64,000 nucleotides of DNA from Microbulbifer sp. YPW1 (GTDB lineage Bacteria > Pseudomonadota > Gammaproteobacteria > Pseudomonadales > Cellvibrionaceae): NCBI RefSeq assembly GCF_013367775.1, contig NZ_CP055157.1, positions 3,174,001-3,238,000 of the forward strand, given 5' to 3'. Shown one piece after another: positions 24,619-32,211 of the stretch; positions within the stretch are counted from its first letter, which is position 1; each line of letters starts with the position of its first letter. The notes beneath the pieces are model-generated. The model was not told the DNA's origin and made no database searches. It saw only the letters and a list, made by a program, of their open reading frames with translations. The position numbers were made by a program, and so were the translations under genes.

Positions 24619-25178
24619 AGGTTTTCCCCTCGAATCCTTTCTCTGCTTTATTTTGGGGTGCTCTGGGTTAAGTAAACCCGGGGCATCAAGCCCATCCAGA
24701 ACACGATTTCCTGCGAGCGGCGGCTCCGTTGCCACCCGCGTGTAAAGCCTGCTGTCTATTATTTGCGCAGGCTTGAGTCAAAAGCGCGGCAATTTTACCC
24801 CAAACCCCTGCGCGCTGACCAATCGTCTTTCAATGTCGTCTGAAACTTTGTGACCGATCGGCTTGCTCTGACCCGTTAAGTGTAGTAGATCGCGCCTGTT
24901 GCGGAGGCCTCTGCGCCAGCCCGAAACGCTGTTGGGGTTGAGTTCGGTGTCTAAAACGCCTTTTTCGCTTTCGGCCGTATATTTACCCCGGGAAGGTCGA
25001 CATTCCCGGCTAACGTCATCTTTACTGCACAAGTTAGTTTCCGGCAGTGTTGGAGCGGCGGAGCATCGGGTACAATGCGCGCGCTCCGATTCCCGGTGTA
25101 CCTGTGTGGCAGCGTCTTCGTAACCCTGATACTTCCGCCCGCAGGCGCTCAAATCCAGACAAGAGGCCAAATCCCGCG
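24619..25178. other. Divergent mltF-purL intergenic region
   Basis: A 560-bp stretch without a convincing gene. Several short open frames lack ribosome sites and protein-like sequence. No PurR-type operator (ACGCAAACGTTTNCGT) is recognisable. Promoters for both flanking genes must lie here. Confidence 0.5.
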
Positions 25179-28100
25179 ATGCTAGTTCTGCGTGGTGCTC
25201 CCGCACTGTCGAAATTTCGCCATCAAAAACTCCTTACCCAACTCCGCGCCCTGCAGCCCGCGATTGCAGACGTGTACGCCGAGTTTGTGCACTTTGCCGA
25301 CAGCGACAAGCTGGGCAAGAAGGACCAGGCGCTGCTGGAGCGTCTGCTGCAGTACGGCCCCACCGAGGAGAAGCACCAGCCGGAAGGCGAGCTGATCCTC
25401 GTGGTTCCGCGCCCTGGCACTATCTCTCCCTGGTCGTCCAAGGCAACCGACATTGCGCACAATGCGGGCCTGACCCAGGTGCACCGCCTTGAGCGGGGTG
25501 TTGCCTACTACCTTACCGGGGTCAAATTAACCGAGGCTGAACGGAGCGATCTGGTTGCTCTGCTGCACGACCGCATGGTTGAGAGCGTCTACTTCCAGAT
25601 GGAGCAGGCCGAACAACTGTTCGTGGTGGAAGAAGCCCGTCAGATGGGCCGTGTGGACGTGCTCGACGGTGGCCGCGGGGCGCTGGAAGCTGCCAACGTG
25701 AGCCTGGGCCTGGCGCTGGCGGATGACGAAATCGATTACCTGCTCACCAGCTTCGAAGAGCTGGAGCGCAATCCCACAGATGTTGAGCTGATGATGTTCG
25801 CCCAGGCGAACTCCGAGCACTGCCGCCACAAGATCTTCAACGCCAGCTGGACCATCGATGGCGAAGAGATGCCGCACTCCCTGTTCGGCATGATCAAGAA
25901 CACCTACCAGAAGGGCGGCGAAGACGTCCTGTCTGCCTACGCGGACAACGCCGCGGTAGTGGTCGGCCACGAAGCGGGTCGCTTCTACCCGGATCCGGTC
26001 ACCAAGGAATACGGCTTCAGCCAGGAAGCCATCCATCTATTAATGAAGGTGGAAACCCACAACCACCCGACGGCCATTGCACCCTTCTCCGGTGCGGGTA
26101 CCGGCGCTGGCGGCGAGATCCGCGACGAGGGTGCCGTGGGCCGTGGTTCCAAGCCCAAGGTGGGCCTGACCGGCTTTACAGTGTCCAACCTGCAGATCCC
26201 CGGCGCCCTGCAGCCGTGGGAAGTGAATTACGGCAAGCCTGAGCGCATCGTCACCGCGCTGGACATCATGATCGAAGGCCCTATCGGCGGTGCCGCGTTC
26301 AATAACGAATTCGGTCGTCCGAACATCTGCGGTTACTTCCGTACCTTCGAAGAAGATTTCGACGGCGAGCGCCGCGGCTACCACAAGCCGATCATGCTGG
26401 CGGGCGGCTACGGCAATATCCGCGAAGAGCATGTGGACAAGCCCGAATTCAAAGCCGGCGCCAAGCTGATCGTGCTGGGTGGCCCGGCGATGCTGATCGG
26501 CCTGGGTGGCGGTGCCGCTTCCAGTATGGCCAGTGGCTCCAGCTCCGAAGACCTGGACTTCGCTTCCGTACAGCGCCAGAACCCGGAAATCGAGCGCCGC
26601 TGCCAGGAGGTCATTGACCAGTGCTGGCAGCAGGGCGACAAGAACCCGATTGCGTTTATCCACGACGTGGGTGCCGGCGGCCTGTCCAACGCCTTCCCGG
26701 AGCTGGTCAAGGACGGCGGCACCGGCGGCAAGTTCGAGCTGCGCAATGTGCCTTCCGATGAGCCGGGCATGAGCCCCCTGGAAATCTGGTGTAACGAATC
26801 CCAGGAACGCTATGTTCTGGCGGTGATGCCGGAGGATCTGGATCGCTTCGAGAAGATCTGCGAGCGCGAGCGCGCGCCGTTTGCGGTGGTGGGTGAAGCC
26901 ACCAATGAAAAACACCTGACCCTGAACGACAAGCAGTTCGACGCCAAGCCGGTGGACCTGCCCATGTCCGTGCTGTTCGGCAAGCCGCCGAAGATGCACC
27001 GAGTGGCGGAAAAGGTGGAAGCGAAGACCACCGCCTTCGACACCAGCAAGATCGATCTCGCCGAGGCGGCAGAGCGCGTACTGCGCCTGCCCACCGTGGC
27101 CAGCAAGAGCTTCCTGATCACCATCGGCGACCGCACCGTAACCGGCCAGGTTTCCCGCGATCAGATGGTCGGCCCCTGGCAGGTACCGGTAGCAGACTGC
27201 GCCGTAACCACCGTGGCCTACGACAGCACCGCCGGTGAAGCCATGTCCATGGGCGAGCGCACCCCGGTGGCACTACTGGATGCCCCGGCTTCCGGCCGCC
27301 TGGCGGTGGGTGAGGCGATTACCAACATCGCCTCGGCACCGATCAAGAAGCTGTCCGATATCAAGCTTTCCGCCAACTGGATGTGTGCCGCCGGCCACCC
27401 GGGCGAGGAGGAAAAGCTCTACCGCACTGTGGAAGCAGTGGGTATGGAGCTGTGCCCGGACCTGGGTATCACCATCCCGGTAGGCAAGGACTCCATGTCC
27501 ATGCGCACCGCCTGGAACGATGGCGGTGTCGACAAGGCGGTTACCGCACCGCTGTCCCTGGTGATTTCCGCGTTCAGCCCGGTCACCGATGTGCGCAAAG
27601 TGGTTACCCCACAGCTGCGCAAGATGAAGAAGGGCGAGAGCGAGCTGCTGCTGGTAGACCTGGGTGCGGGTAAAAACCGCATGGGTGGTTCCTGTCTGGC
27701 ACAGGTTTACAGCCAGCTTGGCGATACCCCGGCGGACCTGGATGACGCCAAGCGCCTGAAAGGCTTCTTCGAAGTCATGCAGGAGCTGCTGGAAGAAGAA
27801 AAAGTCATCGCCTACCACGACCGCGCCGACGGCGGCCTCTTCGCCACTCTGGCGGAAATGAGCTTCGCTGGCCGCGTGGGTGTCGATGTAGAGATCTACG
27901 ACCTCGGCGATGACCCGATTGCCGCGCTGTTCAACGAAGAGCTGGGTGCGGTGCTGCAGGTACCGGCTGCCGATGCGGACATGCTGGCAATGCGCTTTGC
28001 CTCCGTGGGCGTGCCGGCCCACCGTATTGGTGAACTGAACGACAACGAGCACTTGCGCATTACACGCGAAGATAAAGAAATCTTCAGCCGCAGCCGCGCG

Positions 28101-29057
28101 GAACTACAGCAGATCTGGTCCGAGACCAGCTACCGTATCCAGTCCCTGCGCGACAACGCCGATTGCGCCAAGCAGGAATTCGATGCGATCGCCAAGAGCG
28201 CCAAGGAAGATCCGGGCTTGTCGGTGAAACTGTCTTACGACATCAACGAAGACATCGCCGCGCCCTACATCAAAAAAGGTGTACGTCCGAAGGTTGCCAT
28301 CCTGCGCGAGCAGGGCGTCAACAGCCAGGTTGAGATGGCGCATTCCTTCCACCGCGCCGGTTTCAATGCGGTTGATGTGCACATGAGTGACATCCTGTCC
28401 GGTCGTGTTGAGCTGGATCAGTTCAAGGGGCTGGTTGGCTGTGGTGGTTTCTCCTACGGTGACGTGCTCGGCGCCGGTGAAGGTTGGGCCAAGACCATTC
28501 TGTTCAACGATCGCGCCCGCGACCAGTTCGAAGGCTTCTTCAACCGCAAGGACACCTTCGGCCTCGGCGTGTGTAACGGCTGTCAGATGTTCTCCGTAAT
28601 TAAGGAGCTGATCCCCGGTGCGGATCACTGGCCGCGCTTCGTGCGCAACCTGTCCGAACAGTACGAAGCGCGCTTCGCGCTGGTGGGCGTGGAAGATTCC
28701 CCGTCCGTGCTGTTCAAGGGCATGGCCGGTTCCTACATGCCGGTAGCCGTTGCCCACGGTGAAGGTCGTGTGGAGTTTGCCAGCCAGCAGCAGCTGGAAG
28801 ACTGCGAGCAGTCCGGCACCATCGCCATGCGCTACCTGAACAACAAGCAGCAGATTACCGAGACTTACCCGGCCAACCCCAACGGCTCGGTGAACGGTAT
28901 TACCTCGCTGTGTTCCGAAGACGGTCGCGTGACTATCATGATGCCGCACCCGGAGCGAGTTGCCCGCGCGGTCAGCAACAGCTGGCACCCGGATGACTGG
29001 GAAGAGGACTCCGGCTGGATGCGCCTGTTCCGCAATGCGCGGGTGTTTGTCGATTGA
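25179..29057 (+). CDS. purL: Phosphoribosylformylglycinamidine synthase
   Basis: Converts FGAR, glutamine and ATP to FGAM in de novo purine synthesis. The 1292 residues (E. coli 1295) carry the full large-type architecture: an N-terminal PurS-like domain (about 1-140), a linker, and two AIRS-type halves with the ATP site. Signatures include [32 protein letters not shown] and [15 protein letters not shown]. The C-terminal glutaminase domain (about 1030-1292) has the nucleophile Cys1132 in LGVCNGCQ and the His/Glu pair in MPHPERV. The ATG at 25179 begins [11 protein letters not shown], matching family N-termini; the longer frame is rejected. Confidence 0.98.
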
Positions 29058-29080
29058 TAGACAGGCTCTGAGCACGTGAT

Positions 29081-29111
29081 AAAAAGCCCCGGTTTACCGG
29101 GGCTTTTTTTT
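29081..29111 (+). terminator. Terminator of purL
   Basis: AAAAAGCCCCGG-TTTA-CCGGGGCTTTTTTTT gives a 12-bp stem and U tract. Nearly identical to the terminator at 31319-31349. Confidence 0.93.
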
Positions 29112-29235
29112 AGGGCGCGATACCGACGCTGTTGTGTGTTCATTCGCGCGTGCGCCCGCTATGCGACATCGACCAATGGCGCATGTTAGGGTAATACTTC
29201 AGATGTGATCGCAACCACATTGTGGGGGAGCAGCG

Positions 29236-30222
29236 ATGAATACAGAGGAGCCCGCATTTAAAATGCCTCCGGTACGGGAAACCGCTTCCGGGAACCCGCG
29301 GCGAGTAGGGTTTGAGTTGGAGTTTTCCGGCCTTACCCTGAAAACCGCCGCCAACGCGGTAGCGGCCGCCCTGGGTGGCGAGTTGCAACAAGATTCGGCG
29401 GCAGAAATGTCTCTACATCACGATCTGGGTTGCTTCAACATCGAAATCGATTGGGACTTTCTGAAACGCTACGCCTCTGAGAGCGGCGCCAAAGAGGGGG
29501 GTGATGGCTGGCTCGACCTGTTGAGCCAGGTGGCCGCGCTGGTGGTTCCTATCGAAGTAGTCTGTCCGCCCCTGCCACTCGATCGGCTGCCCATGTTACA
29601 GGCACTGGTGCCCGCATTGCGTGACGCCGGTGCCCGCGGCACCGAGGAATCATTGATCGCCGCTTACGGTGTGCACATCAATGCGGAGATTCCGCGGCTT
29701 GAAGCGGAAACAGTATTTGCCTACCTGCGCGCTTTTGCGTTGCTGCAATGGTGGCTGGTAGACACGCACGAAGTCGATATTGCCCGGCGGGCAAGCCCCT
29801 ACATCGACCTGTATCCGGAAGCCTACGTGCGTCTGCTGTGTGAGCAGAGGCAGCCGTCGATGGACGATATTTTCTCCGATTACCTGCAGCACAATGCCAC
29901 GCGCAATCGTGCTCTTGATCTGCTGCCGTTGTTGGCGGAAATCGACGAGGCGCGGGTGCGTCGTGCGGTCGATGATCCGCGTATCAAGCCGCGTCCGGCG
30001 TTTCACTACCGCCTCCCCAACTGCCAGATAGAAAAACCCGATTGGTCGCTGGCGATTAGCTGGAATACCTGGTGTGCCGTAGAAGCGTTGGCGGCACAGC
30101 CAGAGCTACAGGCACAGCTGAGCGAGGAATTCCTATCGCGTAGCCAGCCAATACTGGGTGTCAATCGCAACAAATGGACTGACTTTGTCGAGCAATGGCT
30201 GAACGACCACGCATTGGTGTAA
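29236..30222 (+). CDS. Amidoligase-family enzyme (glutamine-synthetase-like fold)
   Basis: A predicted ATP-dependent carboxylate-amine ligase. The 328 residues start with a disordered segment, then show RRVGFELEFSGL, the GxExE nucleotide/metal motif (Glu27, Glu29). Also present are HHDLGCFNIEID, the EVVCPPLPLDRLP segment and YGVHINAEIP, all placed as in the amidoligase family. Comparative genomics has linked this family to peptide and cell-surface amide modifications, but its substrate is unknown. GGGGAG precedes the ATG. It is first of three overlapping genes with a GATase-I enzyme and a YqaA membrane protein, a combination that predicts a dedicated amide-bond-making and -breaking module at the envelope. 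Confidence 0.85.
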   Translation: MNTEEPAFKMPPVRETASGNPRRVGFELEFSGLTLKTAANAVAAALGGELQQDSAAEMSLHHDLGCFNIEIDWDFLKRYASESGAKEGGDGWLDLLSQVAALVVPIEVVCPPLPLDRLPMLQALVPALRDAGARGTEESLIAAYGVHINAEIPRLEAETVFAYLRAFALLQWWLVDTHEVDIARRASPYIDLYPEAYVRLLCEQRQPSMDDIFSDYLQHNATRNRALDLLPLLAEIDEARVRRAVDDPRIKPRPAFHYRLPNCQIEKPDWSLAISWNTWCAVEALAAQPELQAQLSEEFLSRSQPILGVNRNKWTDFVEQWLNDHALV

Positions 30223-30860
30223 CGGGAACCGCGCGGCGCTGGTCGCCGGGTTGGTGGTGTACTGCCGCAGCGCTGTGGCTGGCCGGCGCTGCGCCGGAGC
30301 GGATCAGTGTGCGACACAAGCCTTCGGGCAACCCCCTGCACGGACTGGTGATCGGTGGCGGCGACGATATCAGTCCCGAGCACTATCACGGTGATCTGCG
30401 GGAAAAAGTGAAATCCGATCCCGAGCGGGACCAGTTGGAAATTCATTGGATCAATTATGCCCTGGAGCAGCGACTGCCACTGCTGGGTATCTGCCGCGGT
30501 GCACAGCTGATCAATGTCGTACTTGGGGGCAATCTACACAGCGATATCCGCAACCTGCGTCGCCGTACTTACAATCGCCCCGGCCTGTTGCCTACCAAGC
30601 AGGTATTCGTGCAGCCGGAGTCAACCCTAGCGCAGCTCACAAGGCGTAAACTACGGGTTAACAGTCTTCACCACCAGGCGATAAAGCGCCTGGGCAAAGG
30701 CCTGCGGGTCGTGGGACGCGACCTTGATGACTTCACCCAGGCCGTGGAAAGCGATAGCGGGCGCCCAATTATCGGCGTGCAATGGCATCCCGAATATCTT
30801 TTCTATTTGCCAGCACAATTTGCCCTGTTTCGCTGGCTGAGAAACCAGGGGGCGAAGTGA
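30195..30860 (+). CDS. Class I glutamine amidotransferase-like gamma-glutamyl hydrolase (peptidase C26)
   Basis: The 221 residues have the GATase-I / PuuD-like triad: nucleophile Cys100 in LLGICRGAQLIN, and His198 with Glu200 in GVQWHPEY. LVIGGGDDISPEHY is the usual oxyanion-side motif. Such enzymes hydrolyse gamma-glutamyl bonds or supply ammonia to a partner synthetase. The gene overlaps the amidoligase stop by 28 bp, indicating tight coupling. The N-terminal segment is short of the usual first beta strands, which may reflect a compact variant. The stop overlaps the start of the next gene. Confidence 0.88.
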   Translation: MAERPRIGVTGTARRWSPGWWCTAAALWLAGAAPERISVRHKPSGNPLHGLVIGGGDDISPEHYHGDLREKVKSDPERDQLEIHWINYALEQRLPLLGICRGAQLINVVLGGNLHSDIRNLRRRTYNRPGLLPTKQVFVQPESTLAQLTRRKLRVNSLHHQAIKRLGKGLRVVGRDLDDFTQAVESDSGRPIIGVQWHPEYLFYLPAQFALFRWLRNQGAK

Positions 30861-31288
30861 TCAGCTACCTGGTGCTGTTCGCATCCGCCTTTCTCGCTGC
30901 AACCATTCTGCCCTTTTATTCGGAGGTGGTGCTGTTTGCGCTGCTGCGCGATGGCGGTGATCCGCTGCTGCTGGTTGCCGTTGCCACGCTGGGCAATACC
31001 CTCGGTGCCGTGGTGAACTGGGTCTTGGGCCGCTACCTGCTGCACTTTCAGGATCGACGCTGGTTTTACTTCTCCCATAAGCAGATTGCCAGGGCGCAGG
31101 CGTGGTTCCAGCGCTATGGCTTCTGGAGCCTGTTGCTCGCGTGGATGCCGGTAGGTGGCGATGCGTTGACTTTGATCGCCGGTATCATGCGGGTACGCCT
31201 GTGGCTGTTTATTTTATTGGTGGGGGTTGGCAAGGGCCTGCGCTATGTCTCTGTGGTTTACCTGCAGCAGTCCGCAGTGTTCGGCTAG
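30857..31288 (+). CDS. YqaA/DedA-like (SNARE-associated) membrane protein
   Basis: The 143 residues form about four hydrophobic segments: ISYLVLFASAFLAATILPFYSEVVLFALL, then LLLVAVATLGNTLGAVVNWVLGRYL with the conserved Gly-Asn and Gly-Arg, and WSLLLAWMPVGGDALTLIAGIMR. This pattern matches YqaA-type members of the DedA superfamily, thought to move lipids or small amphiphiles across the inner membrane. The GTG start (30857) overlaps the preceding TGA by three bases. Function in this operon is inference: export or flipping of the amidated product. Confidence 0.85.
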   Translation: MISYLVLFASAFLAATILPFYSEVVLFALLRDGGDPLLLVAVATLGNTLGAVVNWVLGRYLLHFQDRRWFYFSHKQIARAQAWFQRYGFWSLLLAWMPVGGDALTLIAGIMRVRLWLFILLVGVGKGLRYVSVVYLQQSAVFG

Positions 31289-31318
31289 TCGTCCGTGCGA
31301 ATCCGCCCCCGCCTCCCC

Positions 31319-31349
31319 AAAAAAAGCCCCGGTTTACCCGGGGCTTTTT
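31319..31349 (+). terminator. Terminator of the amidoligase operon
   Basis: AAAAAAAGCCCCGG-TTTAC-CCGGGGCTTTTT: a 12-bp stem with A and T tracts. Differs from the purL terminator by one inserted base in the loop/stem edge. Confidence 0.92.
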
Positions 31350-31470
31350 CGTTCCTGCGTATCACCAGGTTTGTCTAGACTGAGTTACAGGTACGATGCG
31401 GTGGCGCGAAAGCCATCCATCTGTTTTCGGAGTTCCATAAACCCTTAACCTGGATCAGGTAGATAATCCC

Positions 31471-32211
31471 ATGAGTAATAAACTCGATTCCTGCATCAGC
31501 CGCCGTCACGCCATCAAAACCGCGTTGGCAGGGGGTGCAGCCAGTTTGGTGGCGGGTACTGGCCTGATGAGTTTTTCCGGCGTGAGCTTCGCGGCAGCGC
31601 TCACCAAGGAAGAGCGCGATGCCATGAGCCCGGACGATGTCATTGCGATGATGCAAGAGGGGAACGAGCGCTTTCGCAGCGGCAAAATGCAGCAGCACGA
31701 CTATCTCGCGCAAAAGCGCGCCAGCGCCAAGGGGCAGTTCCCGGCGGCGGCAATCCTCAGCTGTATCGATTCGCGCACGCCTGCGGAGATTTTGCTGGAT
31801 ATGGGGCTGGGCGAATCCTTCAATGCCCGGGTGGCCGGCAATATATGCAACGACGATATTGTTGGCAGTCTGGAGTTTGCCTGTGCTGCAGCAGGCGCCA
31901 AAGTGATCCTGGTGATGGGGCACACCGCCTGTGGCGCTGTTAAGGGCGCCATCGACAAGGTGAAGTTGGGTAAGCTCACGGGACTGCTGGATGAGATCCA
32001 GCCGGCGGTGCAAACGACCAAGTACGACGGCGATCGCACCAGCAAGAACGCGGAGTTCGTGGATCAGGTTGCCGCGAACAACGTGCGCCATTCCATCAAA
32101 GAGATTCGCGAAGAGAGCGAGGTGCTGGCGAAGATGGAAAAAGAAGGCAAGATCAAGATCGTCGGCGCCATGTATCACTTGAATGATGGTCGCCTGGAGC
32201 TACTGAGCTGA
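31471..32211 (+). CDS. Tat-exported beta-class carbonic anhydrase
   Basis: Interconverts CO2 and bicarbonate. The 246 residues start with a twin-arginine signal (SRRHAIKTALAGG, about 10-43), implying export of the folded zinc protein to the periplasm. The mature domain contains the zinc ligands Cys98, His151 and Cys154 (SCIDSRTP and GHTACGAVKGA) and the Asp100-Arg102 dyad. An exported beta-CA is consistent with bicarbonate supply or pH control in a marine bacterium. A terminator for the preceding operon separates it. The ribosome site is weak. Confidence 0.94.
   Translation: MSNKLDSCISRRHAIKTALAGGAASLVAGTGLMSFSGVSFAAALTKEERDAMSPDDVIAMMQEGNERFRSGKMQQHDYLAQKRASAKGQFPAAAILSCIDSRTPAEILLDMGLGESFNARVAGNICNDDIVGSLEFACAAAGAKVILVMGHTACGAVKGAIDKVKLGKLTGLLDEIQPAVQTTKYDGDRTSKNAEFVDQVAANNVRHSIKEIREESEVLAKMEKEGKIKIVGAMYHLNDGRLELLS

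Follow-up and report, generated by a model that had tools for sequence, protein, structure and literature searches.

We analysed a 64,000-nucleotide stretch of the Microbulbifer sp. YPW1 genome (contig NZ_CP055157.1, positions 3,174,001 to 3,238,000), called the window here, for a compact operon of three overlapping genes that all read on the + strand and span 29236–31288. They encode an amidoligase (AMD), a gamma-glutamyl hydrolase candidate resembling glutamine amidotransferases (GATase-like; GAT), and a YqaA-type membrane protein (YqaA). The locus contains:

29236..30222, + strand: AMD, PF12224 amidoligase, 328 aa, glutamine-synthetase-like fold (by profile match and model)
30195..30860, + strand: GAT, candidate gamma-glutamyl hydrolase of the C26/class-I GATase-like kind, 221 aa, with the triad C100/H198/E200
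30857..31288, + strand: YqaA, YqaA-type (COG1238) membrane protein of the VTT/DedA superfamily, 143 aa, GTG start
29080..29113, + strand: intrinsic-terminator-like hairpin between a purL-like open reading frame (ORF) and the operon (pattern matches both strands)
31320..31350, + strand: intrinsic-terminator-like hairpin 3' of the operon (by folding)

AMD and GAT overlap by 28 bp, as the first-pass annotation of this sequence had stated, and GAT and YqaA overlap by 4 bp (30857–30860) rather than the 3 bp it gave. The window is part of one 4.58-Mb contig, in which PF12224, YqaA and (at E 1e-10) GAT each match once.

The three gene families originally named were confirmed by profile searches. AMD matches PF12224 over profile positions 2–244 of 245 (E 1.8e-66, 225 bits against a curated cut-off of 22), and its predicted structure has the glutamine-synthetase-type fold that goes with membership. 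Ten acidic, arginine, asparagine or histidine positions are invariant in all 73 AMDs collected (see below) and may include an ATP/metal site, the model being free of ligand; H147 is replaced by glutamine in 17 of the 73. The closest named AMDs are from Microbulbifer sp. Q7 (93% identity) and M. salipaludis (92%), and the closest among the named loci that were fetched is from M. elongatus (90%). GAT matches PF07722 (E 1.3e-44) and PF00117 (E 2.1e-14). Its triad has the positions given in the first-pass annotation, and all 68 aligned GATs share it; together with the modelled fold, it puts GAT in the C26/class-I GATase group. By sequence and by model the nearest solved relatives are Lin1909 (3fij), PuuD and SpuA (7d4r, 7d50, 7d53). 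YqaA matches PF09335 (E 5.4e-15) and shares 47% identity with its E. coli namesake over 133 columns, which places it in the COG1238 YqaA subfamily of DedA/VTT proteins; its homologs are labelled YqaA family by the source databases.

The conservation of the operon was followed in 76 loci, comprising 15 from named genomes, 60 stretches from searches of family, class and phylum genomes, and the window. PF12224 is present in 30 of the 144 genomes of the family sample, in 20 of 369 at class level and in 24 of 398 at phylum level (samples overlapping); 20 of the 30 positive family genomes were refetched with long flanks, and one genome with four fragment matches (G721) was left out of the locus set. 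Gene calls follow a simple longest-ORF rule in which M was put as the first residue, and some of the resulting starts are too early. AMD, GAT and YqaA profiles were built from the collected loci, and the AMD profile finds 73 of the 76, with L110, L128 and L145 falling outside it. Locus L003 is the same record as L108 and was left out of the trees and of the correlation given below.

AMD and GAT form a near-obligate pair. In 69 of the 73 loci (68 of 72 without the duplicate) AMD is followed downstream by a co-oriented GAT. In the family sample the best GAT match exceeds 100 bits, a line set after the scores were seen, in 29 of 30 AMD-positive genomes and in none of the 114 AMD-negative ones; the exception (G127) scores 62.6 bits, and the top AMD-negative score is 90.8 bits (G113). 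The short loci of all 30 PF12224-positive family genomes tell the same story, with GAT in 29 and none in L040, which is from the genome of L101. The four loci lacking GAT are L101, L124, L143 and L144. The last three form one clade of the AMD tree (100/99), while L101 is placed among rows that have the pair and resembles a loss of GAT. The AMD and GAT distances are correlated, with r 0.86. Beyond GAT and YqaA, the next commonest neighbour cluster occurs in only 7 of 73 loci, and a Pfam scan of 40 of the 56 close same-strand neighbours returned a varied set that includes two VTT proteins and one GGACT protein. Being overlapping and co-oriented, with GAT following AMD in nearly every locus, the genes can be taken as one unit, as first proposed. 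The first-pass annotation had also staked its reading on the three genes co-occurring in other genomes. That holds for the pair but not fully for YqaA, which is downstream of AMD in 28 of the 73 loci (27 of 72 without the duplicate), and so the three-gene set is not obligatory.

A near-obligate overlapping pair with correlated distances would suit a stable complex, such as a two-part amidotransferase in which GAT is the glutaminase subunit, taking ammonia from glutamine, and AMD amidates a carboxylate. The PF00117 match of GAT fits this as well. However, GAT is nearer in sequence and model to the free-standing Lin1909, PuuD and SpuA than to the GATase subunits of synthases, and the AIG2-like partners that other amidoligases have are not ammonia sources. 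We consider an amidotransferase unlikely, though it deserves to be kept in view.

The exchange of GAT for GGACT/AIG2 partners beside other amidoligases is our main ground for suggesting a gamma-glutamyl amide product. In L110, which is outside the AMD-GAT clade and is taken as a prophage from its neighbour genes, PF12224, DUF5049 and GGACT genes stand in a row; it is the one of seven GAT-less PF12224 loci with GGACT among its scanned neighbours. In the published excerpts available, ORFs 23–29 of phage UFV-P2 include a PF12224 protein, a class-II GATase, an ATP-grasp enzyme and AIG2 (PMC3890496); Tn6164 has an amidoligase followed by AIG2/GGCT (PMC3485107); Arthrobacter cluster AL phages have AIG2 as gene 97 and an amidoligase as gene 98 (PMC5513430); and Phage-ZRK32 has proteins of the AIG2 and amidoligase kinds plus glutathione synthase and glutamine amidotransferase. 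As far as these excerpts go, the phage and Tn6164 arrangements share with the operon an amidoligase (PF12224 being stated for UFV-P2 only), which here has a gene of the gamma-glutamyl-cyclotransferase kind in its vicinity; the two genes adjoin each other in Tn6164 and in cluster AL and are six ORFs apart in UFV-P2. They differ from the operon in the cleaving enzyme, in their mobile-element context and in that the excerpts make no mention of YqaA. A search for relatives of AMD in phages gave no matches among 50,697 records (tblastn, 1e-3). Eleven plasmid records match, all below 60% identity; of seven inspected, three have a GATase-like gene adjoining AMD, among them the record with the Dinoroseobacter shibae pair DSHI_RS19780/DSHI_RS19775, and the other four list none in gene tables that are incomplete.

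Within the 73 loci, GGACT stands beside AMD in two, L102 on the same strand and L099 on the opposite strand, and both also carry GAT. In L102 (6891–7352, genome G054) the GGACT protein overlaps the AMD start by 4 bp according to the ORF calls, giving the order GGACT-AMD-GAT, and the protein has a likely N-terminal membrane helix.

The interpretation we prefer, at about even confidence, is that the operon runs a gamma-glutamyl-amide cycle in which AMD makes the amide and GAT cuts it, with YqaA as an optional membrane partner. AMD would use ATP to activate a carboxylate group and join it to an amine, the gamma-carboxylate of glutamate being the simplest candidate for that group; the fold, the conserved residues and the partner swap make this ligation probable. 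By analogy with its PuuD and SpuA relatives, GAT, as a C26 cysteine hydrolase, would probably hydrolyse that bond by way of a glutamyl-thioester formed on C100. The pair could thereby set the level of a capped amine. Both the gamma-glutamyl chemistry and the direction of the two enzymes are what we infer from these comparisons. Linkage suggests that YqaA handles something at the inner membrane, and it may move an amine-bearing compound or lipid. The main weakness of the proposed cycle is that its intermediate step is missing.

A second alternative is that the pair serves ordinary amine catabolism or detoxification by gamma-glutamylation, with AMD capping a toxic or nutrient amine and GAT uncapping it after other enzymes have altered it. 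PuuA is a glutamine-synthetase-fold ligase, and the logic would be the same as that of PuuA and PuuD at the E. coli locus for putrescine gamma-glutamylation, where a ligase of this fold is likewise joined by a C26 gamma-glutamyl hydrolase. In Rhodobacteraceae bacterium SC52, aldehyde dehydrogenase and amino-acid ATP-binding cassette substrate-binding genes stand upstream of the pair. However, AMD belongs to a distant family (no phmmer match to PuuA at 1e-8), and GAT scores 74.2 bits against the 266-bit cut-off of the PuuD equivalog, NCBIfam NF008471. The fetched flanks hold no conserved Puu-type oxidase, dehydrogenase or transaminase: among the 73 loci, PuuC-like genes occur beside the pair in four, a PuuE-like gene in one, and PuuB-like and PuuA-like genes in none, which does not make a Puu pathway. 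The source genome also lacks a second GAT-like match at E 1e-10, so the other pathway genes would have to be elsewhere. Amine catabolism of this kind seems quite improbable to us.

A third possibility is that AMD acts as a writer, attaching an amide-linked residue to a protein, a glycan or a lipid head group, and that GAT is the eraser that takes this residue off. RimK and RimB are a comparable ligase and hydrolase pair in the part of PMC12239564 that describes them, and the repeated attachment of a VTT membrane protein to AMD-GAT also speaks for this reading. On the other side, there is no recurrent target gene nearby, the commonest other cluster being the one at 7 of 73 loci, and nothing in the sequence points to a macromolecular substrate. 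We regard a writer and eraser pair as more doubtful still.

Relative to the gamma-glutamyl-amide cycle, the place of YqaA is a separate question, and we judged apart from the chemistry whether it is a passenger, that is, a housekeeping gene caught in the operon and unlinked to the enzymes. YqaA is common in the absence of AMD: of 40 class-level YqaA loci, none had AMD in the flanks. These are the strongest class-level loci apart from the window and G168 (where YqaA is linked to AMD), and contig ends truncate some of them. In the family sample YqaA is present at E 1e-10 in 21 of 30 AMD-positive and 39 of 114 AMD-negative genomes (Fisher p-values for presence and absence ignore shared ancestry and are descriptive only). 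YqaA is also missing from 45 of the 73 AMD loci. Its presence on the AMD tree takes about 12 changes, at least seven of them forced by starred branches, and so it has been gained and lost repeatedly. In one genome (G099), a stretch of 20 residues resembling the start of YqaA is all that remains after GAT. In L113 and L148, two of the 28 loci counted as linked, YqaA lies about 3 kb on, past two opposite-strand genes.

Other observations argue against a mere passenger. A YqaA tree with 27 linked and 41 unlinked members puts all the linked ones in a single 30-row set with support 99/89. Of the remaining three rows of that set, two (G215 and G289) are from genomes whose AMD lies elsewhere, and the third (G297) is from a genome without an AMD match in the class-level search. 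Since the tree took in no AMD-negative family genomes with a close YqaA, this set is AMD-enriched rather than AMD-exclusive. At 80% identity or more, YqaA is confined to AMD-positive family genomes (12 of 12), and at 58% or more it occurs in 24, five of which are AMD-negative. Moreover, at two loci an unrelated VTT protein takes the place of YqaA. In L138 a 272-aa VTT protein overlaps the pair on the downstream side and in L126 a 233-aa one overlaps it on the upstream side, both by the ORF calls. The two are 30% identical to each other, and the one in L138 is not meaningfully similar to the YqaA of the operon. Taken with the linkage counts, these proteins make a DedA-superfamily membrane protein a repeated, optional partner of the pair. 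That YqaA is nonetheless a passenger is a possibility we hold somewhat short of even.

Of the DedA subfamilies, COG1238 is one about which little is known. Todor et al. 2023 (PMC10127716), in the portion consulted, consider a role as undecaprenyl-phosphate flippase unlikely for it, propose lipids that are uncharged or positively charged as its possible cargo, and report it as essential in several Pseudomonas. We likewise rejected undecaprenyl-phosphate transport of the UptA kind for this YqaA, which scores 35.8 against 300 bits and 25.9 against 250 bits with the NCBIfam equivalogs. The most specific version of the cycle would have YqaA in one pathway with the ligase and hydrolase: these would cap an amine-bearing lipid or metabolite reversibly with glutamate in the cytoplasm, and YqaA would carry it across the inner membrane. 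We think this improbable as a whole, but if true it would tie the COG1238 subfamily to a biochemical pathway. The YqaA-linked lineages of ligase and hydrolase offer a small, testable handle on the role of COG1238 and of chromosomal PF12224 ligases. If the pair handles just an ordinary amine, the gain would be a modest one in annotation.

The E. coli YqaA is the same kind of short VTT protein, but its gene is not beside an amidoligase; it follows yqaB and is 72 bp upstream of gshA. A yqaA-like gene also abuts a gshA-like gene in L201 (G171). Linkage to gshA was rejected as a general rule, as it was seen in just one of the 40 other YqaA loci.

The pairing of ligase and GATase is itself not new, as PF12224 (Amidoligase_2) is reportedly accompanied by a GATase-like neighbour, in the Pfam text and in work by Iyer and colleagues in 2009, and the Pfam text for the family is said to mention both GATase and AIG2 neighbours. 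AMD-GAT is like this pairing in ligase family and in kind of neighbour; the YqaA/VTT third member is not known to be part of it. In the literature searched, no paper mentions both an amidoligase and YqaA. The first-pass description of the system as under-described is right only in part, the enzyme pair having been named before; so far as our searches go, what is new is the YqaA/VTT linkage. The passages of PMC12096838, PMC3597751, PMC12239564, PMC6376114 and PMC8976061 that surfaced concern other amidoligases or merely cite Iyer et al. 2009.

The operon is found in 12 Microbulbifer genomes, and other genomes of the genus are without it. It follows a purL-like gene in some and stands beside other genes in others, which suggests movement within the genus. 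Complete AMD-GAT-YqaA sets are also present in three Desulfotignum metagenome-assembled genomes (L006, L007 and L008), which belong to another phylum. Their YqaAs are sister to those of Microbulbifer plus one family genome (98/95), and their AMDs fall inside the same 19-row group of the AMD tree (99/93). These sets reflect either transfer as a unit or a binning error.

The operon was originally described as bracketed by twin terminators. Both hairpins do fold well, at −23.7 kcal/mol for 29075–29115 and −22.2 kcal/mol for 31310–31360, with none of 200 shuffles equally good in either case. Across the genome the exact hairpin pattern has three occurrences, and these are two of them. A terminator scan of the window listed neither, probably because the T-run pairs with an A-run. 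The bracketing is less secure on the upstream side. The ORF at 25047–29057, directly upstream of the first hairpin, is one we take to be purL, and since the hairpin lies just 3' of it and its pattern matches both strands, it could belong to that gene instead of the operon. The window has no Rfam matches at gathering score. Fifteen weak matches in 29000–31600 were rejected as structured RNAs because all are under the family's score; most of them are at the two hairpins and resemble generic terminators. An anti-phage defence system was likewise rejected, there being no PADLOC model matches for AMD, GAT or YqaA at E 0.1.

A few loci show other arrangements. In L122, L146 and L147 a second, different GATase-like gene lies 1.06–1.33 kb past the AMD stop, beyond the first GAT (checked with Pfam for L122). 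On an Azospirillum argentinense plasmid (L228), an amidoligase gene stands without an adjoining GATase, and about 2–3 kb downstream of it lie genes of the undecaprenyl-diphosphate phosphatase and DedA families. In L128 (3778–6942, genome G342), a 1054-aa protein carries at its C terminus an Amidoligase_2 domain (E 5.4e-11) fused to SAP, ResIII/DEAD and Helicase_C domains, and this fusion adjoins a gene with a weak match to retroviral-type aspartyl proteases.
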